Both the position numbers and the translations under genes were made by a program. The notes under the pieces are model-generated. The model searched no databases. It saw only the letters and a program-made list of their open reading frames with translations, and was not told where the DNA came from. Source: Vitis vinifera (lineage: Eukaryota; Streptophyta; Magnoliopsida; Vitales; Vitaceae). From it: 64,000 nt of DNA. The stretch covers positions 6,020,501 through 6,084,500 of the forward strand of contig NC_081823.1 in assembly GCF_030704535.1 (NCBI RefSeq). The letters run 5' to 3'. Each line of letters opens with the position of its first letter. The first letter of the stretch is position 1. Positions 2,497-63,411 of this stretch are shown in pieces.

Positions 2497-3274
2497 ATGG
2501 CTGATTCCATTCTCACATCAGATCACCTGAAAAAGGCATTACATGTGTTGGGGCTCCTGAGTCTCTTGCTGCTGATGCAGAAAGTTGGTGCGACTGAGTT
2601 CAAAGTTGGAGGCCCAAATGGTTGGTCTGTTCCTGCTGATGCTGCACTCAGCTATAACCAATGGGCGGAAAGGAATCGGTTTCAAAGGGGCGATTCTCTG
2701 CGTAAGTCCTTTCATCATAGTTTGATCAATGATCTAGGCTTTCTGGGAAGTTCATTGTTCACCATACAATGCTCAGATTAATTCCATTTTCTGTTTGATT
2801 ACTGCAGTGTTTGTTTACCCGGCTGGCAACGACTCGGTGCTCTATGTAAACAAGGATGATCATAACAATTGCAACACGGCAACACCCCTGGAACTGCACA
2901 AGGATGGGCACACTACTTTCAAGTTGAATCAGTCTGGTGCTCACTACTTCATAAGTGGGGTAGTAGATAACTGTCTCAAGAATGAAAAACTAGTGGTGGT
3001 TGTTCTTGCAGAGAGGAGCAAGGAATCTTTAACCCCTGCTTCCCCACCATCTGGATCAACAGATATAGTCCCACCATCTGGATCAACAGATATAGTCCCA
3101 TCTCCGGCACCTGCAGGCGAGGAATCTCCTTCTCCACCTGAGGGGTTGGTGCAGATAGCCCCCTCCCCACCTCCTGGAGGTGAGGAGCCTTCTCCAAGTG
3201 GAGCTTCATCGGTATTTATCAGTTTTATCGGTTCCATCGGAGCTCTTGTTGGTTCATCTCTTCTTCTAGCTTGA
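2497..3274 (+). CDS. Early nodulin-like protein (phytocyanin family), GPI-anchor type
   Basis: Two exons, 2497-2701 and 2808-3274, with a 106-bp GT-AG intron placed in the usual phytocyanin position; they join in frame to give 223 aa. Order: hydrophobic signal peptide (about residues 1-32), a plastocyanin-like domain (about 33-135) starting EFKVGGPNGW and holding two conserved cysteines, a Pro/Ser/Glu-rich arabinogalactan-like linker, and a C-terminal hydrophobic tail suited to GPI anchoring. Family knowledge predicts an apoplastic, plasma-membrane-anchored protein. Copper-binding phytocyanins have His-Cys-His-Met/Gln; here the first His position reads NDSV, and the second Cys is followed by LKNEKL with no His, so it should not bind a type-1 copper. 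This places it with the ENODLs rather than stellacyanins or uclacyanins. Poly-T at about 3318-3340 and an AATAAA-like signal near 3519 lie downstream. Confidence 0.93.
3044..3097 (+). repeat. 27-bp in-frame tandem duplication in the ENODL linker
   Basis: Two identical consecutive 27-bp units (3044-3070 and 3071-3097) each encode the nine residues PPSGSTDIV in the proline-rich linker. Perfect identity suggests a recent slippage or duplication event, probably length-polymorphic. Confidence 0.9.
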
Positions 3275-27000: not shown

Positions 27001-29003
27001 GAGTGTTTGTGTAACAAAAGGATACTGAACAAGGGGAAAAAAAAATAGAATTCCAAGCCTTTTACCGAAAATTTATGGCAATTTCAAATGTTGCGATTCA
27101 TGAACTTCCCTAGCACAGGCACAGAGACAAGCAAATCAGTTCCTGCTCCTTGTGCTTAGGCACAACCTGGCTCACTCTTGATAAATGTTTAATTAGTGGT
27201 GGTTTCTTGGTCTCATTGGAAGTAAGGCCTTCTCTTTGTATGCAGGCCAATTTATGCTGGAAATGCTCTTTGCACTGTTCGATACACTGGTTCTGCGCCT
27301 TGTATGTTGACCGTTAGGTCAACATCTTTTCCAGTGCCACTGACATCAGCTAATTCAAAATCTGATGTGGCTCCAATTTCCCAGGTTGACCCCTCAACCT
27401 TTGGTGAAGGTCTGTTTATCTATTTTTCTAAAAAATTTATGTACCGACATTTTCTTGGGGCTATTCATGGTCTTGTAACTTGTAAGCGAGTAAAGCAAAC
27501 AAGAAAAGAAAGAATCTGGTCCTTCCTTTACACTTGATTTATAGTTCTTGCTGGGTGGTAAAGGTGCATTATGATTGACAATGTTTTGTATAATCCTCAA
27601 CTGAGGAAACAAAGGAAGAAAAGAAAACATCTGGTCCTTTCTTTTACAAAATGCTGAATAATTCTCATGTATCAGTGCATTTGATTGGTAACTTGGTTAC
27701 CGGATCTCCTATGAATGATTTAGATACCAAATGTCTAATTTAGAACCTATATCATGTCACAACATATTTTCTAATGACATGATTTTTGTCTTATGATTTG
27801 CAGATATGGTGTGCAAATCAAAATATTTAAGCCATACCTCTCAGGATTCAGAACGTCCAGATCTCGGTAATGCTCGTATTGTGGTCACTGGGGGCCGAGC
27901 GTTGAAAAGTGCTGAAAACTTCAAAATGATTGAGAAGCTTGCAGAAAAACTTGGTGCTGCAGGTTGCATTGGTTTCCTCAAGTTCCATAATTTTATTTTT
28001 AAAATTAGTTCTTTTTTTCTTCAATGATTTTCCTAAATTGCTGATGGAGATTAAGATTTTTCTAATACCTTTAGATCCCTTAAGATGGAATGATTCTACA
28101 CCTTCCATCTTGAAACCCAGAGGCATGTGCCTTTGTTGTCAATATTTCTCTTATTCTTTACAGTGTAACATTTTTGTCATGCGACTTAATTCTTCTCTCT
28201 TGTTTAGTTGGTGCTACTCGTGCTGCTGTTGATGCGGGATTTGTTCCTAATGAACTCCAGGTAATGCCAGTGGTGTTTCTTTCTTAACTCCAAACCCTTC
28301 TTTCTTTTTCTTTTTCCTTCTTTTTTGTTTTGTTTTGTTTTGGGGGGGTGTTTTCCCTACTCTTAGAAGCATATGATATAACTTCTGTAACATTGCATGG
28401 CATGATCAAATGAGTCTTTTCATTCCATAATCCTTTACTCTTTCATGTTCTTGCTCCTCATATTCTATATGGTTTTTAAAAATTTTCAGTTTGAGTAGTT
28501 TAGTATGTCGGAGCTTCTGTGACAGCACATGTAGATGATTAAATTCTTTACTGTTTATATTACCTGCACACACAAGAGTACTGTTGTAATTTGTAACTTG
28601 TGCACTTCCGTGCACATGTTTTAGGAAAAAACAAGTCAGTCGTAAATTAGAAGGTTAGGTGGAGTCCCTAGTGTTGGCATGAAAGTTTACCTTGAATTTG
28701 TATGAGGATTTGAAATGCCTCTGGATGACATTAAAAGGATTCCACTGAGTCACTTAAATTGTTGTAGTTAGTCTGTTGTGTTGATGCTGGGTCTTATAGA
28801 TTATCTTTTTCCTGGTCTTAAATTGTGTCTGGTTCGCTTGTCAGGTTGGTCAAACTGGAAAGATCGTGGCCCCAGAATTGTATTTGGCTTTTGGTGTTTC
28901 AGGAGCCATTCAACATTTAGCAGGCATGAGAGATTCCAAGGTTATTGTTGCTGTGAACAAGGATGCAGATGCACCCATATTTCAGGTGATGACTGAATGC
29001 TTT

Positions 29004-29047
<44 letters not shown>

Positions 29048-29719
29048 GAGATGTGGTTTATTTCAAATGCTAAATTTAGTCATCCTATTTTTTCCTCTAA
29101 ATTTTAAAGTAATGGGTAAAAGGTTTATGAAATTAGCGTAAGATAAATTATGAATAGATTTTTGCCGGAAAATGAAACGGACCAACCTTGGTGTGCATAG
29201 AGCCGAGATAGACATAGTTGATCATCCTGTTTTTATTGGAAAAAAAAAATCCTACTTGCTTTTGAAGCTAGTGAGTAAAGTCCAACTAGGTCTCAATGAG
29301 CATACCATGTGCCTGAGTACCGCAGCTATAATACTTTCCAGGTCATGTCGGAAATAACAAACTACTGCAATGTTGTCTTTTTCCCTCATACATATCTATC
29401 AACATCCAGAAAATTGCAAAACCAAACTTGATGAGTACTTGAGAGATGAACATAGCCCTTGAAAACACAACAGGACAGGGGAAGGCATCCTTGTCTGACA
29501 ACTTCCCGCCTAAAAACTTGGTTCCAAACTTGCTTTGCTTTCTGCATTTTTCAAACCCGACCTCATGTAGGCAGAGAGATTCTTTGAGTTTTTCTTGGAA
29601 ATTATTTTTTTGCCTGTTTTAATAGACCTCTTGAATTACAGGTAGCTGATTATGGACTCGTGGGTGACCTGTTTGAAGTGATACCAGAGTTGTTAGAGAA
29701 GCTTCCTGAGAAAAAATAG
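24026..29719 (+). CDS. ETFA: Electron transfer flavoprotein alpha subunit, mitochondrial
   Basis: Eight exons: 24026-24121, 25014-25196, 25730-25941, 27246-27409, 27804-27962, 28208-28260, 28845-28985, 29642-29719; phases join to 361 aa with no stop. The start gives an Arg/Ser-rich mitochondrial presequence (about residues 1-33) ending before ISTLVLGEH. The N-terminal ETF fold (about 34-215) is followed by the FAD-binding C-domain: [10 protein letters not shown] (about 246-255), [11 protein letters not shown], and the signature [19 protein letters not shown] (about 299-317), then VNKD and [15 protein letters not shown]. Known role: with the beta subunit it carries electrons from matrix dehydrogenases (branched-chain amino acid, lysine and phytol breakdown in plants) to ETF:ubiquinone oxidoreductase. 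Length matches plant ETF alpha (~360 aa). Intron 3 holds a minimal LINE footprint and intron 7 a (CT)n repeat. Confidence 0.97.
26621..26677 (-). mobile_element. Minimal LINE tail insertion (23 bp) with 17-bp duplication
   Basis: GACACCAAGTTATATCT occurs at 26621-26637 and 26661-26677. Between them lie 17 T followed by GATAAG, which on the minus strand is CTTATC plus a poly-A tail, the last bases of an L1-type LINE. An almost completely 5'-truncated insertion in ETFA intron 3. Confidence 0.75.
29005..29044. repeat. (CT)n microsatellite
   Basis: About 19 uninterrupted CT units starting 20 bases after the splice donor of ETFA exon 7; likely length-polymorphic. Confidence 0.9.
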
Positions 29720-43779: not shown

Positions 43780-44507
43780 ATCCAGATGCAATCAAATAAT
43801 TAAACCATAAAAATCCATTTAGATATTCTGAATTCAATCAAATAATTTCTCATCCACCACAGCAATTCACCGGCTCATTGCTTGTGGCTCAAATTCACTC
43901 CATTTTTTTCACAAAAATTCATGCCCCCTTGTTATATATTATCATCCTTATACGACAGCAGCCCCCATTCTTAACGTAAGAACCAGTGAGTGATTCTCTC
44001 TGAACTAGTAACACTGTGATATTTTGTATGGATATTAACGTAGCAGAAGCCAACCACAGTGAGACAATTAGGAGTGTCAGATTGCTACGTAGGCTTCGAG
44101 AACACCGTTCACCTGGCAGCTGCTTCTCTCTTCCACCTGCCCGTTATATATGTAGTGTCACTGCACTCACGTTTTCCATTTCCCATTTCCCAAACACGAT
44201 CCTTCTCGATAAAACCGAAGCCGCAAGGGCAAGAGAAGAAAGAGTGTGATTTTCCCTATAATTTGTTCTACTAATTGATCACTAGTTATCATACATGTAA
44301 GTGCAGATTTCAACGTTTATATATGTTCTCATTTCTTTGATTGATCTTGTGTATTTCCCATTTGCCGTTCCATTTTTCTTTTAATTTTTTTTGGGTTTTG
44401 ATCAAACCAACAATTTGTGTTTTCTCCAAGCTGGTTCTCTGCAATTGGAGTATGGATTTGAAGGACATTGTGATCTAACATGAGTTAATGATGTAATGCA
44501 GTTCAAA
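43780..44507 (+). promoter_or_regulatory. Promoter and 5' leader of START gene copy 1
   Basis: Blocks here (for example GTAAGAACCAGTGAGT at 43976-43991 and TTGCTACGTAGGC near 44091) recur in the same order upstream of copy 2 (58400-59122). A TATATAT box is at 44145-44151. A donor-like CAT|GTAAGTG at 44297 and the acceptor TGCAG at 44497-44501 suggest a 5'-UTR intron, as in HD-Zip IV genes. Confidence 0.55.
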
Positions 44508-47500
44508 ATGGAAGGTGGGCTTGAGGCAAGTGGAAGCAATGGCGAGGAGAACAATAGAGATGATGACTTGAACATGACAATAAGGGAGATCTTGGAAACG
44601 AAGGAGAAGGGTAGTGATGATGACTTGAACATGACCATAAGGGAGATCTTGGAAATGAACTCAAGTCTTCGGTATGAAGAGATTGATCGTGAACTCAAGG
44701 AGATGAAAAAGTAGGGTTTTTGAATCTAATAATGGACATGCATTTTGTTTATTTATTTAGTTAATTAATTTTTTTGGGGTGTTTTGATCATACATTTTGA
44801 TTCTAAAGGTGTTAGGGCTTTTATTTGTTTTGTCAGTTTTGTTGAAGATGTTCCCACTAAGAGGGTGGAGCCTGAAGGAGATTTAGGGTTTCAGGCAAGA
44901 GAGGTAAATAGGGTTACTGATGTAAACAGCATTATATATGGGTTGTTTGTAAAATTGTGACAAATAAGCATTTGGATGGGTATCTCATACAAGATCCATG
45001 TCCAATGGAAGAATAGTGGAACTTGATAGAAAAATCCTAGAAACCTGCCAGCCAATTTGAAGAAGTACAAAGAAATTTGATAAAACTCAGCTCATTTCTT
45101 ATCAAGGTTTTCATAAAGCTCTAGTTAACCACATTCATTATTAACCAAGTGTACATCTTTTATGCTTTCTCTTAATGATTTTGCATTCTTGAAAATTATT
45201 TTCTTTTAGTACTTTTTGATTAAGATGGGGATGGAATTTTCTTTTGAGAAGTAATGTTGATTTTTTGATTTTGGTTATAATTGTGATTTTATTTTTATCT
45301 TCCCAAGTGCAGATTGACAGTTTCTCAGGAAGTGGTAGAGATGAAGAAGACCCTATGTCCTCTTCTCCTCCACTTCCTCCCCAAATAGTCCAACATTCAA
45401 TATTAGATACTGAGATTGAGGATTTTGGGTCGCTTTCAGGAGCTAGAATGGAGTTAGACCGAGCGAGTGATCTCCTTGTGTCGGTTTCTGTTGGAACTGA
45501 GGAAAACAAGCAAAAAATTGTAGACCTCAGTTCTGCAGCATTGAAAGAACTACTAAAAATGGCCAAGGAGAAACAGCCTCTATGGCGAGACTGTATAGAT
45601 GGGGAAGTTCTAAATCATATAGAATACACAAAGCAATTTGGGGAGATTGATAAAACTGCGGAGAAAATAATGAGAAAGACCGAAGAAACTCTATTGTCTC
45701 CAAACTTGGGCAGCCCAAGACACATTTCAGCATTGCCTGAAGAATCAAGGATAACTCTTTATACTGAAGCTTCAAGACATACTCAGTTTCTCCCTGTGGA
45801 TCCAGTCCACATAGTTGAACTGCTCATGGATATGGTCAGTTTTTCTCTCTCAATTAATAATCGAAGATTTTATTGTTATGCTGTCTGGCATTGAGGAATA
45901 ATGTTTGCTTTCCTTGTTTTCAATATCAGAATCAGTACTCAACTGTATTTTCTAGTATTGTCTCAAGAGCCACAATACTGGGCAACCTGTCAACAGATAC
46001 CCCAGGGAACTATGATGGAGCTCTGCAAGTGGTAATCGAAATTAAATCTAAACTTCCTCTCATTTTATATTTGTTTTGAGTGTATATATTGAAGTGTTAG
46101 TTTAATCACAACCAACCCAGGCATGACTAAAAATTGGGGCTTGTGTTTAAATCATGTTCATTAGTAATTATTTTTGGTCTATCAATTTGTATGTCTCATA
46201 TTCCTTAACTTGGCATGATTTTGATTGGCACTAACTGAAGCATGAGAAGCTTGTAAATATTACTATAACACTACTGATTATTGACCTTTTCTTCATCATC
46301 ATATGACACAGTTCATTAGTTTTCAGATGCATAACTCTTATATGAATTCTTAAAGTTTCTCTATTGCATTGTGTTTATGAACAGTATCATACAGCTGATT
46401 ACTTCAAATCAGCTGTATGCCCTGGAATCCCTTTTTCTTTCTTTAACTTTCTTGATCATTCATGCATTGAATTTTGATTCCCTTGTTCATATCAATGCAA
46501 TCACTGTTACAAGGATTGGTTCCTAAAAATATTCTCATCTTAAATGATTTTCTAGATGGCGGTAGAATTTAACGCCCCTTCACCACTCCTTCCAACGAGA
46601 GAGTGTCATCTTGCAAGACACAGTAAGCAGCTGGCCACTGGGATATGGGGGGTGGTAGATGTTTCCTTGGAAAGTTTATTTCCTAATCCGCTAATAAGGT
46701 ATCGACGAAGGTCATCAGGCTGCCTCGCTCAACAATTGCCAAATGGAGTCACCAAGGTCAGTGGATATGTGACAAATTAAACATGAACGCCCTTTCAGTT
46801 CACCTCAATCATATGTTTCTGAGTCTTCTGTATCCTCAGATCATCTGGGTTGAGCACTCGGAAGCAGATGATAGTTCAGTTCCCGAAATGTTTCAGGCCC
46901 TGGTTACCTCCGGCCATGCATATGGTGCAAAGCATTGGCTTGGAAATTTAGTTAGACAGTGTGAACGCCTTGGACATATAATGGCTAGGAGTGATCCAAA
47001 ACCTGGTGGTAGGCTTATCATATCATAAATCTGAAACCTAAATATCCTGCATTGATATATAGTCTTACTTTCAAATTGATTAACTACTGTGTTGGTTACG
47101 TATTCGACCTTTATTTCTTCACAGAAATGGTTTCTCCTGGAAGAGAGAATGTGTTGTGCCTTGCTGAGCGAATGATGAGAAAATTTTGGGCTAATCTCAG
47201 TGATTCATCAGAAAACACATGGAGGCCAGTACCACTAAAGGGAGCTGAAAATGTTCGGGCCATGATCAGAAGTGGTGAAGATGAAGAAGGACGACCTCCT
47301 GGTACAGCGATAGTTATTGCAACATCTGTGTGGGTTCCTGCATCACCAAGGAGGGTTTTTGATTTCCTCCATGATGTGCATACACGAAATAGGGTAAGTT
47401 TTGATGTGATAGCGTTTTCCGTTATTGATTCATGGGATCCTAGCTAGCCTCCATATTTCTTTTATTGTCAATATTAGGGACAGGAAGGTGCTAAACCAGG

Positions 47501-50500
47501 TAAGCACTATATAGATCAATACACACTGGCTGTGATAACTAGAGTTCCAAGTGTGGAATGATGTATTTACATACAAGTATTGATAATGAAAGGATTAATT
47601 GCCAGCATAGAGAAGGAAACAATATTGATTACCATTCTATTGTTAGTATTAGGAATATCTCTTAAGCACTGTTAGTAATCTTGTAAATAACATGCATACA
47701 TTTTCAGCAAGGATAATTTTCCTTTGATGCTAAAGAGGTAAATGAATGAATGATCAAAAGTATTGTTGTTGGTATACATTACAACCATTAAATATACACA
47801 CAACTTTCCAAAAGATAAACTGTACAAGGTATGCGCATATTACTCCTAAACTTAAGAATTGACCATCGAGTGCTCTTGATTTGTAGTTGAGATTGGCTCT
47901 CTCCTAATATGCCCCTGCAAATGGTGCTTCCATTAGAGGCATCAATCTTGGGCCGAATTAAAGAATGTAAAATGAGACCTAGGAAGGGGTTTGGTGAGTA
48001 TATTAGCAAATTGATTGTGGGTTGACACATGAGCAACTTGAAGGGAGCCTGTAGCTACCTTTTCCTGCATAGAATGGTATTTAAGAACAATATGCTTCAT
48101 TTTTGAATGGAGGACAGTATTTGCACATAGAGATGTAGCACCAATGTTGTTGCAAAGTAAATGGGGTGGCTTGGGAATGAGAATTCATAACTCAAGAAGA
48201 AGATTAGTGACGCAATCTATTTCAACCATTGCCGAGGTTATAGAGCGATATTTAACTTTAGTAAATGAGCGGGAAACTATAATTTGTTGCTTTTTAGAGC
48301 ACTAAGAGATTGGGTTTTCTCCTAGAAAGAGTACATACACTGAGATGAAAGTGTAGTCATCCCGATTGCCTGCCCAATCGACATCCTAGTAGGCAATTAA
48401 TTGTAATGAATTTGAGTGACGGAGTAGGAGACCATAGTCTAAGGTATGTTTGAGGTACCGCAAGAGACATTTGGAGGCAATACAGTGAGTTTGAGTTGGT
48501 ACATGCATGTATTGAGCCAATTTATTTATAGCATAATGTCACGAGCCTAGAGTTCCAACATAGTAGCACGACCCGTGCAACGATCCCATGGGCAAATATC
48601 AAAGGGGCTCAACTTGCATGTCATGCATTTCAATGCCATTATGCTGATTGGTTTCATCCTGCTATGGACTCATCAAGGGAACGAATCTAGCTCCCGACCA
48701 GTTTGTGTAGAGGATGGCCAAGCTCCTCTTCATTGTCAAGTCCTTGACTAGCGACAAGCTCCCCAAACTTAACTAGGTCGGCCTGCTTGAAATATGAAGA
48801 AACATTCCAACATCACATACACGCCTTTTCCCTGGAGCAATTCTCATTACATTAAGCTCAAACCAATCAACTTACTATTCTTGATCAACACTTTCGCTAC
48901 GGTCACAAACATCAAACAAATAGTTTGTGACATTCTCCCCCACCTAATCTCTTGCACGCCTCATGCAAGGCTTCATGTCTTACCCAAATTGATGCCCTCG
49001 AATGCTGCCGCCCTCCACAAGCCATTAATCACCAAAGGTCCACTATTGAAACCCACTGGGCCAAAGGGGACGTCCACACCTTGGACCCGACATCACTTGT
49101 CGTGTTTACCCGGTAACACCTTGGAAGTGTGCACCTAGACACCAATTTTCACCTTTAGTAGGCGACACCCACGCGTATTACTAGACAGTTAGGGACACCT
49201 CACGATTTGGAGGCACCCATACTCCCTTACGAGTCCTCATAAGTGCAACTTTAATTCACGCCACAGTACCCACCCTCGCACCGTTGTAACGTTAGGCTTC
49301 ATAGACTACTAGTATTGCCATCAGGATAGATAACTCATCGGCCACATATTGTTAGAAGGGAACACCACCATGCTCAACCTCCTGCCTTGCTCTGACACCA
49401 CTTTTCACGGGCTTAGAGTTCCAATGTAGCGACATAGCTCGTGCGGCAACCCCATGGGCAAAAATCAAAGGGGCTCAACCTGCATGCCATGCATTTCAAT
49501 GCCACTTTGGTGATTGGTTTCGTCCTACCATGGACTCATTAGGGAAATGACTCCACCTCTTGACTAGTTTGTGTAGGAGATGACCAAGCTCCTTTTCATT
49601 GTCAAGTCCTTGACTAGCGACAAGCTCCCCAAACTTAACCAAGTCGGCCTGCTTGAACTCTGAAGAAGTATTCCAATATCACACACACACCTTTTTCCTG
49701 GAGCAATTCCCATTACATTCAACTCACACTAGTCAACATAATACCATTCTTGATTAGCACCTTCACTACGGTCACGGACACCAAACAAACAATTTGTGAC
49801 AATAAGCCATATTAGGTTTGGATATGGAAAGGTATTGCATATTACCAATGAGATTGTGATATTGGGAGACATCAACTGGTGGAGATCCATCATTTTAAAT
49901 AAGTCGAGTAATACAACTGAGTAGTGTGATAATACCCTCCATATGAAATCTTGCAAAGAGCTTGTGAACATGTTTTTATTGAGAGAAGAAAAATCCATTT
50001 GGTGATGGAATAACCTCCTTACTCAGGAAAAAATGAAAAAAAAATCCAAGGCCTTCAATGGAGAATCGATTAGAGAGAGCTGTAATGACATGGCGAATGA
50101 ATGATAGAGAGTTCTTTATAATTAGCAAGTCATTCACATAGACTAAAAAATAAATAAGGATAAAGTTGTGAGAATGAATAAACAGAGAAGAATTAGAGCG
50201 AGAGGCTTGAAAGCTTGAAAGCCTAAAGATAGAATAAAAGTCTTAAGCTCAGTGAACCAAGCTCGGCTTGCTTCAAGCTGTAGATAGATTTGTGCAAATG
50301 ACAGACATGATGGGGTTAAGATTGATCAATGAATCCTAGTGGCTGGGACATAAAAACTTCTTCATGGAGATGCTTGTGGAGGAATGCATTGTTGACATCT
50401 AATTGATGCATTTTCCATTCATAAGAGAGAGAGTAAGAGAGAACAGTTTGAATAGTTGTTTGTTTGAACACAAAACTCAATATCTCATGATAGTCGAGGT

Positions 50501-53500
50501 TGCATAACTAGTGAAATCCCTTAGCTATGAGGTGAGCCTTGTATTGAGCTATGCTGCTATTAGGATTATGCTTGATCCAGAAGACCTACTTGTAGCCAAC
50601 TAATTTTGTTGAGGTTCGCAAGGAACCAACTCCCACGTAGCACTTGAGGCAAGCACTTGAAGTTCTTCATTCATAGAATCTCTCCATTCTTTTTGTGTTA
50701 AGGCTTGGATTATGATAGTGGGTTCAAAACCTAAAGGCATGGGATACTTGGTGGTGCTAAGGGGTTTTTTTTTTTTTTTTTTTTTTTTTGTGGTTTGAGG
50801 ATGTTATTTTTGGATCAAGTTTGCATGGGATGGTAGGGAATGGGGTTGGTGATGGAGTTTGGGAGTGCTTCATTGGTATTCGATGTGAAAGAGAGGTCAA
50901 CCACAAAAAAGAGACATGAGGAACATGATGTGTGATAAAGAGAGGAGGATTGGTGGAGTTTCCTTATTGAAGATGGAGCTTGGTAATGTGCTATGAGTGG
51001 GCAGTTTCAAAGAGAGTTCAACCACAAGGGGAATAACTTGCTGTATGGAGGCACAAAGGACTTGAGACGTGAATGGAAGGTGGAGCGAGGAGTGCAAGGT
51101 TTGCGGTGAGGATTGGAGAGTTTCATGGAATAAAAATATGGGGTGGATAGGTTGATGTGGTAAAGTAAGGATGGGGTAGATTGATGGACAAAATGGAAAG
51201 GGTGGTAGTTCGATAATGATCATGTGAAGTATGGGAGGCAAACACGACTCAAGGGGTAGGACAACTCATGGAAGGGGCTGTTTGTTGAGATAAATTAGGA
51301 ATGGAGGTTGTAGTCTCCTTGATGCGAGGAATAAGGGAGATAGACACAATTGGAGGGGTGGGACAACTAATTGAAGAGGCTGGTTGTTGAGATAAATTAG
51401 GAATCGAGGTTGTAGTTTCCATAGTAGGCAACAAAGACCAAAGGGATAAGAGCAAGGATGCTCGATAGAAGAAAGTGAGTCCAGTTTCAACAATATGTAT
51501 GTGACAACGTTCAATAGAGGTGATATGTTGAGATGTGTGTAGGGGGAAGATAAGATGTTGAATCTCATGATTTGAGAACACAGATGTTAAGCCTTTCTTT
51601 ACCACCATAAGAGTAAAGGGTACTAATAGAAGATTTAAAAAAAATTTCAACAATTTTCTTGAACTTTGGAAATAGTGAAAAATTTTCAAATTTATGCAAT
51701 AAGGGGAAGAACCATGAATATTTGGTGACATGATGAACAAAAAGGACATAATAAGAAAATCCATCAATAGAGTGAATAGGGGAAGGTCCTCATACATCTA
51801 TGAAGATCAAATGAAAAATGACTCTACAAATTAGATTCGTCAAAGGGTAATTTATGACTTTTATTATAGTAACAAGAATCATGAGATGACTGAGACAAAA
51901 TGGAGGAAATTGAAAGATTATTTTGAGAGACAATTTGGTGTAAAATTTTAGAAGATGGGTGACCAAGTCTATCATGCCAGTTGTTAAGAAAGGCTTTAAC
52001 ACCCATGCAAGCTCGTTTTATTCCAATAGTGGAAGCATCTCTAGTTGACCACTCATAAACATTATTCTTGCTCCATCCTCGAGCAATGAGTGCCCTTGTG
52101 ACTAGATCCTTCACACAAAAGACGAGGGGTTAAACTCAATGGAAGCATTATTTGATTGGCAAAATTGTGAGATAGAAATTAGGTTTTGTTTCATGGTTGG
52201 GACACACAAAACAATGGAGAAAGAATGAGTAAGATGGATTTGAGAGAGTTATCTTTCTAATATGAGTGATATTCAAACCTCTATCATCACTAATGACGAT
52301 GCCATCCAGGCCTTTGAATGGTTGTCCAGTATCCAAGAGCCAATTAGTTGAGGAATTGTTGGTGGTGATAGCTGGATTGGTAATAGGCGTGAATGAAAGA
52401 AACAATTTCTTAGCAGTGTAACACTAGCAAACAGTATGACCTTTTCTCTCACAAATTTGGCATATCACAGTGGTGTTCTTGCTAAGGTGTTGATTCCTGA
52501 AATGAGAAGGGCGTTGGCCTTGTTGTCCTTCCTATTGGGGAAATATTTTTTGCTAGGGTTTTTTTTCACTATTAGAAGATGAAAATTGAGCATTGTTAAC
52601 AGTAATGATACCAAGATTTCCAGTGGAACAGAGCTCTTCCCGCTTGAGGAAGGCTTCATATTCCACTAATTTGTCATGCAACTCATCAAAGGTAATCATA
52701 GTATCCCATGCTTGTACAACAACGACGATTTCTTTGAATTCAGGATCAACACCATTGAGTGTGTGAGTGATGAGGTATTGGTTTGGAATGGGTACCCCAA
52801 GAAGATTTGGTTCATCAACAATGTCACGGATTGTGGCAAGATAATCGATTACTGGTTGAGAGCCACGGTTGAGAAGAGTGAGTTGCTTTGCTAAGCCTAT
52901 GGTTCTGGATGATGAGGGATTGGCATAGAGCTTTGCAAGACGATGCCATGCTTTAACGGAGGTTTTGCATGAGTGAACCACAGGGACAACTTTGTGGCTA
53001 AGGGAACCGATGATTCTTAGAAGAAGAAGTTTGTCTTGTCTTGTCCAAAAAATATAGTCCAAATTTGAGATTTGTTTGCCATTGATTATGATTTTTGAGG
53101 ATGGACATGGCTTGGTTCCGTCAATGTAGCCAAGTAAGTCATATCCAAAGAGCAGTGCGTCAAACTAGGTTTTCCATGAATAATAGTTAGTGGGAGTAAG
53201 CTTGAGTGGAGGTTGGCTAACTGCGTTGATGGCAATGAGAGTGTTGGTAGATAGGGGGAGGTGGGATGGTATGGTTGAGCTTGCATCAACCATGGTGAAA
53301 CGTAGGATGAAAGAGAAGAAAAAAAGAAACTTGTGGGAGCTAGAATGGTTCTGATACCATAAAGAGGTAAATGAATGAATGGTCAAAAGTATCATTGTTG
53401 GTATACATTAATTACAACCTTCAAATATACACATGACTTTCCAAAAGATACATGAACTATACAAGGTATACTTATATTATTCTTAAACTTAAGAATTGAC

Positions 53501-54710
53501 CATTGAGTGCTCTTGATTTCTGGTTGACATTGGCCGGCTCTCTCCTAATAAATCCTTTAACATGTTGCTGGTAAATATTTATTCATGAGAGAGAACTGAT
53601 TGGTTACTTTCATCTGGCTGACACATTCGTCATTTTTCCTACTTCTTACTCATTCTGACTTATGCATGCATCTTAGTTAATACGTTATTATGAATGATAG
53701 TATGCAATCTGGGAAGTCATTCTAATTAAGAGCATGACATCCTTATTTTTCAGTTCTGTTTACTTTAATCAATCCTTTTTTTTTTCTTTTCTTTTTGAGA
53801 ATTTCAATTTCACCAACATCTATATATATATTTTTAGAACTCAGTTTCACTTGCATATAGTGTTGTAGCTTAGCATGTGATTCAAAGGGCAGGGACTAAA
53901 CTTTGCTTCCCTTTGGTTTTTTATTTTACTAGTTGACTTACATTCTTATCTAAAAGAATGTCCCGAACTTTAACAAGATTTGTAGAGTTCATTCACATTC
54001 TTACAAATGTAGAACTGATAGCTTTGAGCGGCTTGAACTTGTACTTTAGACTTGTTTTAATTACCATAGCATATATAGCGGCTTTTCTCTTATATATGAA
54101 TTGAATGTATATAGCATGTTTTCAAAGAGATCTTGTCACTGATCATAGCAAGTATATTGATCTACAGTGGGATATTCTTACTTGTGGACATGTTGTTAAA
54201 GAAACTGGACACATTGATAATGGTTGTGATCATGGAAACCGAGTTTCTATATTGGAAGTGAAGGTGAGTTGCAGTGCCTTCTCTTCATTCATTTTGAAAT
54301 CTGATGTCTATCCCCATCTGTCTAATAGCTAGCTTAATAACTGCCTGATCCATTTCCAGTCTCCAGAGGACCAGATCGTTGTAATACTTCTTCAAGAGAG
54401 CTATACTACTTTTACAAGCTCTTATGTAACTTTTGCACCTGTTGAAGCTTGTACCCTGGATATGATCCTAAATGGAGGCAGCCCGGATCATGTGCCCATC
54501 TTGCCCTCGGGGTTTTCTATTCTTCCTGATGGGCCAACGAGGGATGGAGGGAGCGGAAGTCTTGTGACAATGGCATTTCAGATCTTGGATAATTCCTCGT
54601 CTGCTACATATATCCCTCCTGAATCAGTAGCGACTATTTTTAAACTCGTAACAGAGACTGCTGAGTGCATCAAGGCCGCAATGTTTAGTCCATCAAACTT
54701 GGGAACATGA
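44508..54710 (+). CDS. START-domain protein derived from HD-Zip IV, no homeodomain (copy 1)
   Basis: Nine coding exons: 44508-44710, 44837-44903, 45313-45834, 45930-46031, 46556-46756, 46840-47008, 47125-47393, 54168-54263, 54360-54710; phases join to 659 aa without stops. Residues about 165-410 form the START domain (AALKELLKMA, PLW at 179-181, NYDGALQV, TRECHLARH, IIWVEHSEADD), followed by the HD-START-associated region (LAERMMRKFW, WDILTCGHVV, GNRVSILEVK, LPSGFSILPDG, VTMAFQIL). All are landmarks of class IV HD-Zip factors, which act in epidermal development. The N-terminal homeodomain of that class is absent; instead there is an acidic segment with NMTIREILE twice in a 19-residue tandem repeat. 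The start ATG follows an acceptor-like TGCAG. The intron after 47393 is 6.8 kb because of a copia insertion. Without a homeodomain, direct DNA binding is not expected; lipid or partner binding is possible. Confidence 0.88.
44559..44657 (+). repeat. 57-bp in-frame tandem duplication near the N-terminus of copy 1
   Basis: The 42 bases from 44559 recur almost unchanged from 44616, an offset of 57 bp, repeating DDDLNMTIREILE. Copy 2 has a single equivalent (DMTIIEIIE), so the duplication arose after the paralogs split or was lost in copy 2. Confidence 0.85.
47731..53550 (-). mobile_element. Decayed Ty1/copia retrotransposon in an intron of START copy 1
   Basis: Similar direct repeats of about 180-190 bp (47731-47909 and 53360-53550) are the LTRs. 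On the minus strand a primer site TGGTATCAGAACC lies next to the right LTR (53347-53359), and a purine tract next to the left one (about 47910-47920). In order on the minus strand: gag from 53293 with an in-frame stop at 53165; a zinc knuckle CQICERKGHTVC near 52430-52470; a protease-like WLLDTG near 52350; GAG-pre-integrase with WHDRLGHPSS near 51950; integrase pieces to about 51.4 kb; reverse transcriptase from about 50640 (WI..NPNSSIAQYKA) with YVND in place of YVDD near 50130; and RNase H near 48.0-48.5 kb. Frameshifts and stops show it is dead. A poly-T run lies at 50767-50789. Confidence 0.9.
48533..49805 (-). mobile_element. TRIM-like small LTR element nested in the copia element
   Basis: Direct repeats of about 396-399 bp (48537-48932 and 49403-49801) flank a 470-bp non-coding centre. 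On the minus strand a primer site TGGTGTCAGAGC (49389-49400) lies just inside the right LTR, and a purine tract GGTGGGGGAGAA (about 48933-48944) just outside the left LTR's inner edge. ATAA flanks both sides (48533-48536, 49802-49805). Removing the element and one ATAA restores the copia reading frame PNMAYAINKL. No coding capacity, so it must have moved in trans. Confidence 0.85.
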
Positions 54711-57700
54711 TATGAGGAGATCAATTTTAGAAGTCGCTGTTGTATGACTAACTTTGGTAAGTTCTATTCAAATGTTTCTCCCTTATGGGTTATAAGTCGT
54801 GAAATGTATAGAAAATTTCTGGTTTTGTTTAAGGTTTCCAGGTTAAGGTTTGATGCAACATGGACTGCAAGTCTTAGTTTCTGGTTTTTTTTTTCTTTCC
54901 AAACCACAGTCCTGAATCAGAGAATAAGATAGCGGAAAACATTAGTTATTTTCTAACCGTATTAACATGCATTAAAGTTGAAAATCATCAAATCTTCCAT
55001 GACAACTGACTGAAGAATCGTTCTGATTTTTTCTTTTAGATGTAGCAGTAAGAAGGAAAAGGCGATAGGAAAGAATATCAGTGGAGAAAATTTGTGGAAA
55101 CACCTCAATTCTAGTACCTTTGTATTAATATCCTTTGTCATGCTTTATTTGTATCTTCTTGTTGTAGAACTATTTGATGCTAATTTTAAATAAAATTCTA
55201 TACATTAAGTTAGCATAAAAAACTTACCTCCAGCCATGGTTAGGACCAGAGACAAATAGAGGGCATACTTCAACAACTCAATTTTCAAAAGGAAGTTTCT
55301 TCTTGCCTTTACAAGTTTACAACATATATAACCAATGAAAAACTTGCCTCACATTCACAAAACAATATTCCCCTATGTAAAAATGGTTTAGACTCTATAT
55401 GAACTAACTTTTGAGAAACAGGAAACCCTTCTTTAAGCTCAATAAAACCATAATTTGTCTGATAATTGTCTTAAAAATCTTTTGACCTAAAAAGAACTTA
55501 GATAGAAGTCTAGAAAATATTATACTTCTCATATAAACCATTATTTTATGCTTATAATGTCAATATTATCCCTTCAAAATGATGATTTTTTACTTTAGTT
55601 AACTTCTACTTCTAACCGAAGCTAAAAGCAAAACACTATCAAAAATAGACTCTTCAAATTGGTTTCCAATATCCGCTTCCATTATTCAAAAGGTTATTTT
55701 GAAATAGCCTTAGATATAACCTTAATTATGTCATACATTATTATTTTCAAGGCTTTATTTCCTAAATATAAAGAAAGACTAGAAGTATTAATCATGTTTC
55801 TCACCATGCTTATTAGACTTTGATACCTTTTTTGACAACATTATTTTGTTTTAGAGTGTCAAATGTTGTACATGTTTAACCATACTTCTTGTTCAAGGAC
55901 TTTGCAAATGGAATTGGTATGTATCATTTTTTGTGTTCCTTCTGTAGCCTGTTCACCTTTGTTTTATCTTACGATCTCCATTTTTTTGCCGTTTCATTTC
56001 TCTACATCCAATTATATAAGACTTGAAACTATTTGATGTTCAGCCTTATCAAATGTGGAGACGTTTAAACCTTGTATGATTATCAATAAATGAGATAAAA
56101 ATGTGTTTGATTATTTAGGCAAGGAGTACAAGTTCTTGGCGCCTTTAGGGACTTGTTGGTTTGCTTAATTACCATTGATATGATCTATAAACATCCTACT
56201 ACTACTAAAACTAAGTTTTTAAACTTTACCATTTACTAACCTTTTGATTCTCTCTATGGAGATATGTCTTAGTCCTTTATGTCATAATAAAGAGTTCTCA
56301 CTGATGAGAGCTCCTATGACAATATAACCATGCCTAATGTACAAGGAAAAAAAAAAAATTCCAATGAAACTTTTGATTTGGTGGCAAAAAAATAAAATAA
56401 AAAACTTGTTGACAAATAGTTTTGGTCACTATTTTTTCTGTCATAGATATGTTTTCTTGGCTAATATAATTTAATGTCTAAAAAAAATATAAGGGGACAC
56501 AATTATAGATCAGACAATTATAAGATGAAAGTTTTTGCTAGGAAAGTCTTCTTTTGCCACAAAAACATTATTTTTGGATCTGTCCCTAATAATATACTTT
56601 GTTTTAAAGTAGTCATTAAAAACTCAATATTCAACAAAATTGTATAAAACAAAAGCTTAACAATAGCTACAATAAAATAGAATCAAGATCAATGAGTTTA
56701 GCACATCACAAAATTACTAAAATGAACATAACATTAGAAAACCTCCCAAGCTAGTAGCCCTAAGGCTCTCCTCTAAGAAGCCTTTTCATCATTTGCATAA
56801 TGGCTTTATATTGGTGCTCCTATGTTACCTTAAATGGTATACCAACAAGGCCGGAGATCCGATGATCAAGAGCTTGGAAAAAAAAATGGTGAGCTTGTTC
56901 TATTTGGAGTTCCAACGTACATGAAATGACAACAAGGGGGGAGGGGGTGAGGGGGTGAGAAATGACATTAAGGAATAAGGTGGTGCCCTCATAGCTCCAT
57001 TTTTAGCTATGTCTAGCTCATCTTCAACCTAGAATGGCAATACGACATGGGAAAATCATTTTTGGAAGAATGCTACATTGGCTCTTTCAACACTTTTTTT
57101 TTTTTTTTTTTCATCAATCTTTCCCAAACTTTTCGGCTAAGCAAAAAATGTCCAAATCTTTTGAAAATTAGTAAGATTGATCTTTAATGAATGTAGAATT
57201 TAAAAAAAAAAAAAATTGTTTGAGCTCACTTGGAAATCTTTAAACCCTAAAATCAACCTTAAACTCCGAATCAGTCAGAATATACAAGCCTATGCCACTA
57301 GCTTTCGCGCAACTTTGCTTCTTTAGTTCCTTTCATATTTCATTCTTACCTCTAAGGAATATGTCACAATGGGTTCCCAAGACATTCTTATTATTCACCA
57401 AAATGGTTATAAACTTCAAGGACTAAAGTGAAATGTGAGAAAACCAAACATAACTAAGGCGACTTTCAATTAACTAGTTAGGAAAACCATTGCATACCTT
57501 ACACCTTCCTAACTTTCAAGATGTAATAAGTGTATAGGAGAAACTTTAATTATTCCAGATTACAAAACTATACTTCTCATATCACATTCTAATGAGAAAA
57601 CAATTTACTATACTTCAACTAAAACTTCTTTTGTAATGTTTTTATGTGCTATGTTTTCTTTCACTCATTCAGAAATATCAATCTTGGCTCTAATACCATT

Positions 57701-58162
57701 TGTTGTATAAAGTGAAGCTTTTGTGCCAATGTGCTAATATAATTAAGAACATAAATATAAAATAATCCATACACAAAAGTACACAATATTTTAAATGTGA
57801 TTTGATCAACCATACATAAATCCATGGATGAAAAAAATCATTCTATATACTAAAGAAAATATTATAGAGGGGATAAAAACATGATATAAATATTGAGTCC
57901 TAAAATAACTTTGTTTTCTCATTTATTCTATCTACACCCCAAATTACGAGTTCTCACTCCATTGAGTGTTTATTGTTCTCCCGCCCTCAGATCTTTATCT
58001 ATCATATATAGTCTTCAAAAGCATATATCTATTTCATAACATTTTTTTTATGATCTAAAATATTTATAAAGATGTTTCTAATAACTTTCTTTATTTTGTA
58101 AGAAAATTTAATATTACAATACACATCAATATAGAAAATATTATATTAAATATTCTTAATTT

Positions 58163-58213
<51 letters not shown>

Positions 58214-58399
58214 CAATTAAGAATTTGAGTTTTTTTAATGGTTTTGAATAAGAAAAATAGAAATTTTCAATAATTGTAGACAAACTAATTATGGATGGTG
58301 TCTTTTAAGACAATAAACCATAATAATTAAATTCCATTTCATTATTTTAAAATTTAGACAAATAAATAATTCAACATTTAGTCAACACACTAGGTGGTG
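54711..58399. other. Intergenic between the two START genes
   Basis: Begins with the 3' UTR of copy 1 (AATAAA-like signal near 55189). The rest is AT-rich without a supported gene. AATGGTATTAGAGCCAAG on the minus strand at 57684-57701 resembles an LTR-element primer-binding site, hinting at an old copia remnant, but I found no matching LTR pair or convincing protein pieces. Confidence 0.4.
58166..58209. repeat. (TA)n microsatellite
   Basis: About 22 TA units, upstream of START copy 2. Confidence 0.9.
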
Positions 58400-59122
58400 A
58401 ATTATCATAAAAGATTAAATTATAGAAGTCCATTTAGATAGTTTCAATTCCACCAAATAATTTCTCATCAAATAGCACATTTTTACCCATTCTCATAAGA
58501 ACAATTCAACAATTCTTCATCACTTGTGGCTCGGATTCGCTTCAATTTCACAAAAATTCCATTCCACCTTGGCTAATATTATCACCCTTATACTACAGCC
58601 CCTCTCTGAAGGTAAGAACCAGTGAGTCATGAGCAGGTCTCCTTCAAGTAATAACACAGTGATATCGCAGAGATATGTCGAGGTAACAGAGGCCAATCAT
58701 GGTGAGACAAGTGGAACAGTCAGGTTGCTACGTAGGCCCCAAGTCTACTCTTCACCTGGCAACTATACTTATCAACTTTTCCACCTGCCCATTACATAAA
58801 ATGCCACTGCACTCATTTCCCATCTTGCGAATACAATCCCTGTCGATACAAGCAAAGCTGCAAAGAGAGAAGAAAGGAAGAGAGTGATCAGAGAGATAGG
58901 ATTTGTTCTACTCATTGTTAGCCATCATACATGTCTGTTCAGATTTCGACATTTACATTTCTTTGATCCATCTTTGTGTATTTCCCATTTTGTATTCCGT
59001 TTTTCGATTTTCGGTTTTAATCATATCATTAATTTTCATTTCTCCAAGTTCATTTCTATAATTTTAGTGCAGAAGTGAAAACAATTGTGATCTAACATGA
59101 GTTGATGGGGGTGCAGTTCAAA
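58400..59122 (+). promoter_or_regulatory. Promoter and 5' leader of START gene copy 2
   Basis: Homologous to the region before copy 1: AATAATTTCTCATC, CTTGTGGCTC, GTAAGAACCAGTGAGT (58612-58627) and GGTTGCTACGTAGGC (58722-58736) come in the same order. A weaker TACATAAAA at 58793-58801 stands where copy 1 has TATATAT. The acceptor TGCAG at 59112-59116 precedes the start codon. Confidence 0.55.
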
Positions 59123-62100
59123 ATGGTAGGTGGGCTTGAACCTAGTGGAAGTAATGCTAAGGAGAAAGACGGTAATGATGAGTATCGGGACATGACCATA
59201 ATTGAAATCATAGAAAACTCCAGAAATGATCGGCATGAAGAGATTCAACGTGAACTCGAAGAGATGAAAAAGTGGGGTTTTTAGTCTGATCAGGGACACG
59301 GATTTTATTTTTAAAATTTTTTTAGTTGTTTTTGATAGTATATTTTGTTTCTAAATGTTTTAGGGTTTTTCGTTTGTTTTTTCAGTTTCATTGAAGAATT
59401 TCCCACTCGCAGGGAGGAGTTTGGGGGAGGTTTAGGAGTTCAGCCAGATGTGCAAAGAGAGGTAAAAAGGGCTACTGGGTAGATAGTAGCATAATAGATG
59501 GGTTGCTTGTTAACTAAGCATTGCTTGATTCTTAAGCAAAAATCCCTCTTCAATGTAAGGATCCATGAGACTGAGGTCTGATCATGACACTCAGGATATA
59601 TAAACCCTAGAACCAGCAAACTCATTTGAAGATGTATAAAAGAAATCTTGTAAAACTCACTCAAACAGTACAAAAATTTTGCTCATTTTCTTGTTAGGGT
59701 TTCCAAGAGACTTTACAAACATGTATGTTTTGAAATTGTTGATTGGGATGAGATGGAGTTTTCTTACTCCTTTTGAGAAGTTGTGAATGCCAATTGATTC
59801 TTTCATTTTGATTACAATTATAACTTTATTTATATATCTTCCCTACTGCAGATTGACAATCCCTCGGATAGTGGTAGGGATGAAGGAAACCCTATGGCCT
59901 CTTCCTCTTCACTTACTGATCTCCAAACTTCTCAACCTCCACAAGAAACTGAGATTAAACATTTTTGGTCTCGGACGGGAGTGGGAATGGACTCTGAGAG
60001 GGAAAGAAACCTCCTTATCTCAGTTTCAGTTGGTATTGAGGCATACAAGCTCAAAATCTTGGGCCTTGCCATTGAAGCAATGAAGGAATTAACAAAAATG
60101 GCGACCGAGAAACAGCCCTTATGGCAGGCCAGCATAGATGGTAAAGTTCTAAGCCATATGGAGTACACAAAACAATTTGGACAGGTTGATGCAACACTTG
60201 AGATGGTAATAAGAAAGATTGGGATGCAACAACCTGTACAGCCACCAAACTTGAGCTGCCCTACACATATTCCAGCTTTACCTAATGTTGAAATACATAC
60301 ACAGCCCCTTCAGACCGAAGCTTCCCGAGAAACTAGGTTTCTTCTTGCAGATCCAGTCCACATTGTTGAATTGCTGATGAATAATGTAGGCTTTCCCCTC
60401 TCAATCAACAATAGAAGATTTCATCATTTGCTTATATTGAGGTTAACAAAGTCTTGTTTTCCTTGTTTTATATATCAGGATCAATACTCTCCTGTGTTCT
60501 CCAACATTGTCTCAAAATCCAAGGTACTTGGAGTTCTATCAACACAAGCACAGGGGGACTACAATGGAGCTTTGCAAGTGGTAATACAAATGTCATCTGA
60601 ACTTCATCCCATTTTATATGAAGTACTTGATTAGTGTGTATATCAAAATGGTAGTTTAACCAAAACCCACCCAGGCAGTGTTGCATACTTTCTACTAGGC
60701 GAGGGATGCATTCATGTCTCGCATTCCCAAACTTCAGTATAGTTTTTATTAGCATTGATTGAAACATAAGTTCTTATTGACATAAGAAGTTTGTGAGGAT
60801 TGGATTTAGTAATACTCATTAAGCTCGACCGCATCTACCTTTGTTTATCATATTATGAGACAATTCATGAGTTTTCACATGCATAATTGTTATCATGATT
60901 TTGTAGAGTTTTTATAAGGCATCATATGCATGTGGTTATATAGATTGTATCATGTTTATGACGAATACTAAATATAATCTTTTGGAATGACTCTTGAACC
61001 GCATTGGTGAACATTGATCTTTCTCAGTCACTCATGCATTGAATTTTGATTGCTTTGTATGTTCCATTTGACATCTGTTATAATAAGAATTTCTCAATTT
61101 AATAACTTTCCAGATGGCAGTAGAATTTCATGCTCCTTCACCTCTTGTTCCAAATAGAGAATGCTATTTGGCAAGATACAGTAGATGCTTAAGCAATAAC
61201 GTATGGGGAGTAGTCGATGTTTCCTTAGAAAGTTTGTTTCCTAATCCACTAATCAGATATCAAAGAAGGCCATCAGGCTGCCTGATCGAACAATTTCAAA
61301 GTCGACTCTGCAAGGTGAATAGATATGTGACCTAAATTAAACATGAAATCTTAACTATCTGTGCTTTTTGCTTCATCACAATAACATAGGCTGTAATATA
61401 TATAATTGTTATCTGTATCCTTAGGTGATATGGGTCGAGCATTCAGAAGTGGACAATAGTTCAGTTCCAGAAGTTTGCCAACACTTTGTGACATCAGGAC
61501 ACGCATACGGTGCTAAACAATGGCTTAGCACTTTAGTTAGGCAACATGAACGCCTAACATATATAATGGTTAGGAATGATCGTAGGCCGCAACGTAAGCA
61601 CATTACATATTTTTGGTTGCAGTACTAAATTTGTAAATCTGAAACCTAATCTCCTGCATCAAATATTAATCCTCTAATTTTCAATTGATCGATTGTTAAT
61701 TAACTGTTCAAGCTGTTTCTTCACAGAATTAGTCCCTACTGGGGAAGAGAACCTGTTGACCCTTGCTGACAGAATGATGAGAAGCTTTTGGAGAAATCTG
61801 AGTGCCTCAAGAAAGAACCAATGGATGACAGTACCATTGAGTGGTGCTGAAAACATTGAGGCCATAATAAGGTTTGTAAAAGACAAAGAAGGAAGGCGTC
61901 CTGGTCCGGCATTAGTCATGGCTACAACCATCCGGATTCCTGCCTCATCAAGGAGGATTTTTGATTTCCTTCAGGATGAGAATAGTAGAAACAAGGTATG
62001 TAAGGTTTGATGGACAAGCTTTCAAAGTTCCTTTTATCAATATTGAGAACAAGGAAGGTGTTATAGCTGGTAGACTCTATATAGATCAGTGTCATGGATG

Positions 62101-63411
62101 TGAAAACTCAAGTTCCTAGTATGGAATGACTTATTGACATTTCGGTAAGAATGAACCGATCAATCACATCTAATGTACAGAAGAAAATGTATGGAACTTT
62201 TTGCGAGGATATTTATGTTTTAATGCTTTAACATGTTTATAGCAAAAACATTCACCCAATAGAACCGATCGATAACCTTTTAAGCTTGGAATTAAATAGT
62301 GGTTTGCTCTCAAGACAACACAACACATATTTTCATTTTGTTTGCAGAAACTGACTAGTTTTAGGCTTTTAGCTTTTGTTAATTTTGATATATGCACCTT
62401 GGTCTATATCCATATCTCAACTCTTCATGAATGATGATATGCTAATGTAGGATGCTATCCTTGATATTTACGATTTTATAACTTTCACCTTTCTTTACAA
62501 AATCAATTTCACTGCTTATAGAGTTGGCTGGTTTGGCATGTGATACCAAAAGGCAGGAAGACAATTATTTCCTTGTGGTTTTCTAGTTTAAGAGTTGATT
62601 ACATTCTCATCTGAAAAGAAAAAACAAAAAACCAACTTAAACAAGATGTGTAGATGTGATTGAATGTCTACCATATATATATACACACAGACACTGTTGG
62701 ATTTGAGTGGCTTGAATACTTTAAATTTGTTTTAATTACCACAGCATATATTGATGTTTTTTCCTTTACATATGTTTGAAAAATGGCACGTTTTCCATGA
62801 GATATTGTTACTTATCATAACCAGCTTCTTGATTTACAGTGGGACATTCTTACACATGGGCATATTGTCCAACAAACGAGATCCATCTCAAATGGTTGTG
62901 TTCCAGGAAATCGTGTGTCTGTCCTGGAAGTGAAGGTGAGTTGCAGATATATATGCTTTTGCTTACTCATTTTAAAATCTGGAGTTTCTTTCCTTTCTCT
63001 CTTTCTTTTCCATTGTCTCACAGTTTAACAAAATTCATGGCTTGATGGATAAATATGCAGTCTGCAGAAGATCCAGATAGGACTATTAAGACCCTTCTTC
63101 AAGAGAGCTTCACAACTTCTGATAGCTCTTATGTAACATTTACCCCTGTTGAAGCTTCTTCCTTCAGTATGACCTTAAATGGAGGAGACCCGGACAATGT
63201 GCCTGTCATGCCCTCAGGGTTTTCTATCTCGCCTGATGGGCCAACTGGAGATGAAGGAAGTCTGGTGACGATAGTGTTTCAAATCTTGGATGGTACAGCA
63301 TCGCCTATGCATTTCCCTTCACATTCAGTGGGTACCATGTATAAGCTCATCACAGAGACTGCCAAATCTATCACAGCTGGGACTGTTGATCCAGATAACA
63401 TGGGCAGATGA
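59123..63411 (+). CDS. START-domain protein derived from HD-Zip IV, no homeodomain (copy 2)
   Basis: Nine coding exons: 59123-59271, 59386-59461, 59852-60385, 60479-60580, 61114-61314, 61425-61593, 61727-61995, 62840-62935, 63061-63411; all phases equal those of copy 1 and join to 648 aa without stops. N-terminal acidic segment with DMTIIEIIE and a charged helix QRELEEMKK, then the START domain from about residue 150 (AIEAMKELTKMA, KQPLWQ, DYNGALQV, VIWVEHSEVDN) and HD-START-associated region (LADRMMRSFW, WDILTHGHIV, MPSGFSISPDG, VTIVFQIL). No homeodomain is seen between the leader exon and START. Last four exons from START onward are the same size as in copy 1 (169, 269, 96, 351 bp). Compact introns show the state before the copia insertion. 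Probably nuclear or cytosolic; DNA binding not expected. The function is inferred from family only. Confidence 0.88.

Follow-up and report, generated by a model that had tools for sequence, protein, structure and literature searches.

According to one proposal, class IV homeodomain-leucine zipper (HD-Zip IV) transcription factors detect a lipid signal marking a cell as a surface cell. Shortened relatives of the wider class exist: Arabidopsis At5g07260 and At4g26920 are HD-Zip IV-like START proteins that lack a homeodomain, and the LITTLE ZIPPER (ZPR) proteins, which keep the zipper, interact with HD-Zip III proteins. In the accessible portion of PMC8455945, rice START-MEKHLA proteins without an HD-Zip region cluster with HD-Zip III. 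For PDF2 and ATML1, the excerpted text of PMC10126025 describes the zipper as the dimerization motif, predicts that a tryptophan in helix 4 of START is necessary for ligand interaction, and reports that the W471L change in ATML1 weakens interaction with very-long-chain ceramides. Here, we describe a tandem pair of START genes in the grapevine Vitis vinifera, located in a 64,000-nucleotide stretch of contig 19 (NC_081823.1, positions 6,020,501 to 6,084,500; hereafter the window) of a genome of 495.6 Mb in 21 contigs. Copies A and B occupy window positions 45313-54710 and 59852-63411, both on the + strand. With a probability of roughly 0.62, which applies to the explanation as a whole, they derive from an ML1/PDF2-type HD-Zip IV gene and encode proteins of START and PDF2_C, devoid of homeodomain and zipper, that would act as lipid binders or ligand-level modulators.

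Two grape homeobox surveys, as far as their excerpts go, count 8 class IV genes (PMC5609062) and 73 homeobox-like genes (PMC5626728). Because both take the homeodomain as their starting point in the sections consulted, A and B are probably not in them. Lu 2022, a survey of 23 STARD genes in grape that is cited in the consulted part of PMC12295190, may include the pair. At the level of titles and abstracts, none was found that describes HD-Zip IV proteins without a homeodomain; among the papers listed, three mention At5g07260 and none At4g26920.

Gene models and the missing exons

The models of both copies are homology-based. Each consists of seven core exons with GT/AG at all sites and no internal stop. 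Core exons 2 to 7 have the same length in the two copies (102, 201, 169, 269, 96 and 351 nt) and core exon 1 differs by 12 nt (522 nt in A, 534 nt in B). The joined core frames comprise 569 codons in A and 573 in B, or 555 and 559 amino acids from the first in-frame methionine. A first-pass annotation of the window had rightly seen a tandem START pair with two intact copies. Its protein lengths of 659 and 648 amino acids are not reproduced by these models, and the additional upstream exon that it placed in front, carrying an MTI motif, is out of phase with the START exon in both copies. The features of the locus are as follows, in window positions.

43799-44507, + strand: copy A upstream/leader region, homologous to 58414-59122 of copy B (blastn block), 74-77% identical in global alignment
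44508-44710, + strand: copy A MTI open frame, the first-pass exon 1; probably leader or intron, as judged from its phase 2 end against a phase 0 START exon, codon-position mismatches, a stronger donor at 44514 and a 54-nt duplication
45313-45834, + strand: copy A core exon 1, homologue of the I-D-R START exon of paralogues L010 and L012; first in-frame ATG at 45355
45930-46031, + strand: copy A core exon 2 (START)
46556-46756, + strand: copy A core exon 3 (START); DNA profile match, E 2.8e-25
46840-47008, + strand: copy A core exon 4 (START), with the conserved AYGAKHW tryptophan
47125-47393, + strand: copy A core exon 5 (PDF2_C / HSAD)
47394-54167, no strand assigned: copy A intron, enlarged by a copia-like element whose open frames lie on the minus strand; the matching B intron is 844 nt
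54168-54263, + strand: copy A core exon 6
54360-54710, + strand: copy A core exon 7 and stop
58414-59122, + strand: copy B upstream/leader region, homologous to that of A (blastn block, global alignment)
59123-59271, + strand: copy B open frame with the DMTIIEIIE motif; probably leader or intron on phase, codon-position and splice-score evidence
59852-60385, + strand: copy B core exon 1 (START exon); first in-frame ATG at 59894
60479-60580, + strand: copy B core exon 2 (START)
61114-61314, + strand: copy B core exon 3 (START); DNA profile match, E 8.2e-21
61425-61593, + strand: copy B core exon 4 (START), with the conserved AYGAKQW tryptophan
61727-61995, + strand: copy B core exon 5 (PDF2_C / HSAD)
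62840-62935, + strand: copy B core exon 6
63061-63411, + strand: copy B core exon 7 and stop

Pfam START is matched in A (E 2e-25) and in B (E 1.5e-31), from profile position 40-41 of 207 onward, and PDF2_C (HSAD, the HD-START-associated region) is matched at E 4.2e-65 and 5.7e-55, respectively, in line with the first-pass description of both regions. MEKHLA, the HD-Zip III C-terminal domain, has no Pfam match in either copy up to E 1. The START exon opens with ATT GAC in A and B and with ATT GAT (I-D-R) in L010 and L012. The element in the large intron of A reads as copia-like from its frames, and near its ends are two 83-nt repeats (47815 and 53452) that are 87% identical to each other.

What the copies lack is seen against the eight genes in this genome that pair a homeodomain match with a START match (L009 to L016). 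In all eight, an exon encoding the N-terminus and the first part of the homeodomain ends in phase 2 and is followed by a second homeodomain exon of 118 nt. The zipper has an exon of its own in six of them (189 nt in L010, L012, L013 and L015, 195 nt in L009, 192 nt in L016) and is joined with START in a single exon in L011 and L014. The Pfam homeodomain model matches neither A nor B up to E 1. A genome-wide homeodomain scan (at least 58 matches) has none at 6.02-6.08 Mb of contig 19 among the matches listed, the two on that contig lying at 2.30 and 25.90 Mb, and tblastn found no credible homeodomain or zipper remnant in the 64-kb window. DNA profiles of the first homeodomain exon (its last 50 nt), the second homeodomain exon and the zipper exon were also searched against the window with nhmmer; the first had no match, the others reached best E values of only 0.69 and 2.9, and none of these hits was near A or B. 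Control profiles built from six paralogues, without L010 and L012, recovered the corresponding exons of L012 at E 2e-12, 6.3e-29 and 3.8e-39, and within the window a START-exon DNA profile detected both copies. As the controls succeed where the locus itself yields no remnant, the zipper appears to have been lost as well as the homeodomain. The absence of the homeodomain noted at first pass is thus confirmed by every search, but the accompanying idea that it was excised between a short N-terminus and a retained zipper is not supported. That the locus still yields a complete HD-Zip IV protein, via an upstream or undetected homeodomain exon, is barely credible: nothing found here favors it, the matches listed for contig 19 include no homeodomain between 2.30 and 25.90 Mb, and the 64 kb hold no remnant.

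The interval from the MTI open frame to the START exon measures 602 nt in A and 580 nt in B. Because it can be aligned between the copies at 66% identity, the homeodomain and zipper exons were most simply lost ahead of the tandem duplication.

Loss of the zipper also constrains how these proteins could act. The first-pass annotation had suggested that they could act as competitors, sequestering partners or START ligands; with the zipper undetectable, zipper-based competition is closed to them. A dominant-negative role of another kind, in which the protein without a homeodomain would pair through START/PDF2_C with full-length HD-Zip IV proteins and block them, seems rather unlikely to us. It could draw on the purifying selection in A and B described below. 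The GL2 START domain is reportedly, from the title of a 2022 study by Mukherjee, a mediator of dimerization independently of homeodomain DNA binding. The excerpts of PMC10126025 leave room for a direct START effect on dimerization, but they also allow that the effect on dimer level reflects lower protein accumulation, and the dimerization motif of PDF2/ATML1 itself is what cannot be detected at A and B.

The upstream open frame

The MTI frame (44508-44710 in A, 59123-59271 in B) is open in both copies and had been taken for the N-terminus of the protein, its NMTIREILE and DMTIIEIIE motifs being likened to the NMTIREAM segment that follows the homeodomain. As an N-terminal exon it fails on phase: a phase 2 end would meet a START exon that starts in phase 0, and in-phase readback runs into stops in A and in B. 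Nor is the likeness supported at the protein level, as detailed below. A real N-terminus joined in frame through a weak downstream acceptor is, in our estimation, quite improbable. Both copies do have in-phase acceptors 20 and 26 nt downstream, but when scored with a splice-site matrix derived from 64 introns of the paralogues (scores in training, -2.3 to 12.1) they reach 3.3 and -0.7 in A and 0.5 and 1.6 in B, against 7.9 and 9.0 at the canonical site. The frame is better conserved between the copies than the downstream intron (75% against 66% in global alignment), but the upstream flank is just as similar (74-77%), and mismatches within the frame (13/50, 10/50 and 14/49 at the three codon positions) show no codon-position bias. 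Its sole gap between A and B is 54 nt, a multiple of three, and is due to an in-frame duplication, in copy A only, that encodes DDDLNMTIREILE twice. Donors at 44514 in A (8.9) and at 59125 and 59129 in B (9.2 and 6.4) outscore the AAAAA/GT sites (4.5 and 3.2), which are still within the training range. Four of 24 comparisons with canonical N-terminal plus first homeodomain exons reach P < 0.05, but there is no similarity to the ML1-type N-termini of L010 and L012 (P 0.22-0.95).

Two candidate identities for the frame were set aside. As a remnant zipper, its best result against shuffled sequence was P 0.067 in 24 protein comparisons with zipper exons; the A frame against ENIAIREALK of L013 gives P 0.27, and two of 16 DNA comparisons (A with L011, B with L014) reach an uncorrected P of 0.035. 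The second candidate, a degenerate N-terminal plus first homeodomain exon, was not adopted, the DNA profile having found nothing. The four protein comparisons just mentioned involve L013, whose N-terminus is glycine-rich (A, P 0.023; a shortened A form, P 0.037; B beats 300 of 300 shuffles, z 5.3), and the N-terminal exon of L015 (shortened A form, P 0.037); at the DNA level, the best of 16 comparisons is P 0.015 (A with L011). The phase 2 end shared by the MTI frame and the paralogues' N-terminal plus first homeodomain exon is consistent with such an origin and, if it were true, loss of the 118-nt and 189-nt exons would account for the frame break. Taken together, the frame is more likely leader, or partly intron, than joined coding sequence. 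Its ATG would then act as an upstream start in a different frame from that of the main protein, the exception being donor 59125 of copy B, which would join it in frame.

Descent and selection

HD-Zip IV descent, as originally proposed, is supported. In an unrooted protein tree of nine genes and 482 columns, a branch with support 99.4/100 separates A, B, L010 (contig 12) and L012 (contig 10) from the other five genes, and A plus B are set apart from the rest at 100/100. L016 was left out of the tree and of the codon tests because its model ends early. The order among the pair, L010 and L012 is weakly resolved, with L010 and L012 together at 71.8/73 in the protein tree and a different order at 56 in the codon tree. 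Copy A is 48/47% identical to L010/L012 and copy B 43/43%, compared with 38% (A) and 33% (B) for the next-best paralogue, and exon boundaries from the START exon onward are common to A, B, L010 and L012. Summed synonymous divergence (dS) is ~1.3 for L010-L012 and ~1.6 for A-L010. We take L010 and L012 to be MERISTEM L1/PDF2-type (ATML1/PDF2) genes, and the tandem pair probably descends from a gene of this type. As for L016 itself, on contig 4, its HD-Zip IV model stops mid-START within 9 kb and a separate C-terminal-type match lies at 11188048 of that contig, so that the gene may be broken or may contain a long intron.

L012 has a tryptophan synthase beta gene as a neighbor at a distance of 11 kb. 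A genome search with this gene gave a single strong paralogue, at 6,146,994-6,148,370 of contig 19, ~63 kb past B, and two further non-self matches, both weak. This neighbor, common to L012 and the A/B locus, hints at an origin in the genome triplication, and contigs 10, 12 and 19 presumably form a hexaploidy partner set. On one synteny anchor such an origin is plausible. The relative orientation differs, with START and synthase both on the + strand on contig 10 and on + and -, respectively, on contig 19. When the window's open frames were compared with 200 kb of contig 10 (341,001-541,000), no upstream neighbor of A within the window was shown to have a counterpart there. Besides START exons, the matches were one strong (window 21692-22874) and three short (16553, 33409 and 57693; E 1e-5 to 7e-5). 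The strong one was dropped as an anchor, as it reads as a Gypsy-type gag: it is a gag-like fragment with stops that resembles a Gypsy-type element at ~418-424 kb of contig 10. Elsewhere in the window are a plastocyanin-like exon (2738-3271; PF02298) and an electron-transfer-flavoprotein alpha exon (28800-29138; PF00766).

Selection was assessed with GY94-type branch models, in which a dN/dS ratio (omega) of 1 was tested by twice the log-likelihood difference (2dlnL). Omega is 0.061 on background branches, 0.83 on the A+B stem, 0.25 in A and 0.39 in B; omega = 1 is not rejected for the stem (2dlnL 0.12) and is rejected for A (14.7) and B (7.7). In models of five genes and 520 codons under three topologies, the stem ranges over 0.67-1.09 and omega = 1 is never rejected, while A stays at 0.23-0.24 (2dlnL 17.7-18.1) and B at 0.365-0.370 (10.9-11.3). 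Selection is relaxed on the common stem and purifying in each copy. The direct comparison of the copies suggested at first pass gives an NG86 omega of 0.29 (dS 0.91, dN 0.27), not near 1.

Could A and B nevertheless be dying genes, non-functional remnants with frames open by chance or slow to decay? We consider this unlikely. The near-neutral stem, the weakened constraint in both copies, the frame break between MTI exon and START exon, and broken relatives elsewhere on contig 19 all speak for it. However, at an A-B dS of 0.83-0.91 neither core frame has acquired a stop and six of seven exons are of equal length, the seventh being 12 nt apart. Neutral simulation at tip dS predicts a mean of ~16 stops per copy and left 0 of 2000 runs stop-free for each copy; even with the distance cut to a quarter, the stop-free share was 0.45% and 0.15%. 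Together with the rejection of omega = 1 in A and in B, this agrees with the earlier judgment that intact frames argue against simple pseudogenes.

Eight of 53 genome matches to copy B sit at 21.69-21.92 Mb of contig 19 (21694454-21919672; L037), and five of the eight contain stops, although some of these stretches span intron. Four stops fall in the match at 21919409-21919672, a stretch contained in a single exon's span. In 5 kb of this region are two partial copies whose DNA, introns as well as exons, is ~70% identical to B; the first, truncated where the 5-kb piece ends, carries two stops within an exon, and the second is missing part of an exon. As far as our searches show, A and B would be the two frame-keeping members of a larger group. 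They look like a gene copy that drifted near-neutrally and then regained constraint after losing its defining domain.

Ligand binding and comparison with known systems

The tryptophan of AFGAKRW in L010, within the FGAKRW helix, is kept as AYGAKHW in A and AYGAKQW in B. From its position and the consulted parts of PMC10126025, it appears to correspond to PDF2 W463/ATML1 W471. If translation begins in the START exon, the product would be a START-PDF2_C protein of ~555 amino acids, unable to bind DNA via a homeodomain or to dimerize via a zipper. It would bind lipid, perhaps the very-long-chain ceramides bound by PDF2/ATML1, and act as a soluble lipid binder or as a ligand-level modulator of full-length epidermal HD-Zip IV factors. 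Every step beyond the intact frame is one that we infer. Because START is kept while homeodomain and zipper are gone, lipid binding or ligand-level modulation is favored over zipper-type competition; sequestration of START ligands is possible. A more specific version is doubtful: a third ML1/PDF2 copy from the ancient hexaploidy, stripped of its DNA-binding and dimerization exons, whose ceramide-binding START-PDF2_C product would titrate the ligand that stabilizes ATML1/PDF2. If true, a transcription factor's ligand domain would have been turned into its own buffer.

Several observations weigh against a functional lipid binder. At four- to sixfold the background level, omega in A and B indicates weaker constraint than the paralogues are under. 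Seven full-length paralogues have 103 positions in common without variation; 71 of these are kept in A, 70 in B and 63 in both, the helix tryptophan included, meaning that ~31% of family-invariant positions are altered in each copy, and each carries a ~30-amino-acid insertion between two conserved START segments. Copy A harbors a retroelement in a 6.8-kb intron, and the conserved upstream ATG may reduce translation. The case is built on sequence and on homology-based gene models, and lipid binding would rest on one kept residue and on family membership. Two further searches add little. No L1-box (TAAATGYA) occurs in the stretches scanned upstream of A or B; as none occurs upstream of L010 or L012 either, this absence is uninformative. 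A PDB sequence search returned a single chance match (E 0.46).

Were the lipid-reading half selectively kept on its own, it would allow a direct question to be asked: does ligand supply limit epidermal identity? With the ATML1/PDF2-type genes L010 and L012, the grape pair shares START and PDF2_C, exon boundaries and phases from the START exon onward, and the START tryptophan; it differs by the absence of homeodomain and zipper exons, the ~30-residue START insertion and faster protein evolution. The domain loss appears to be of the same kind as in Arabidopsis At5g07260 and At4g26920. ZPR proteins are likewise small natural relatives of an HD-Zip class, but they are the converse case, in that they keep the zipper, whereas A and B lack it and keep the lipid domain. 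The rice START-MEKHLA proteins, as described in the accessible portion of PMC8455945, resemble A and B in bearing START, lacking the HD-Zip region and grouping with an HD-Zip class; they belong with HD-Zip III, whereas the grape copies, with PDF2_C kept and no MEKHLA match, would be an HD-Zip IV-derived counterpart.

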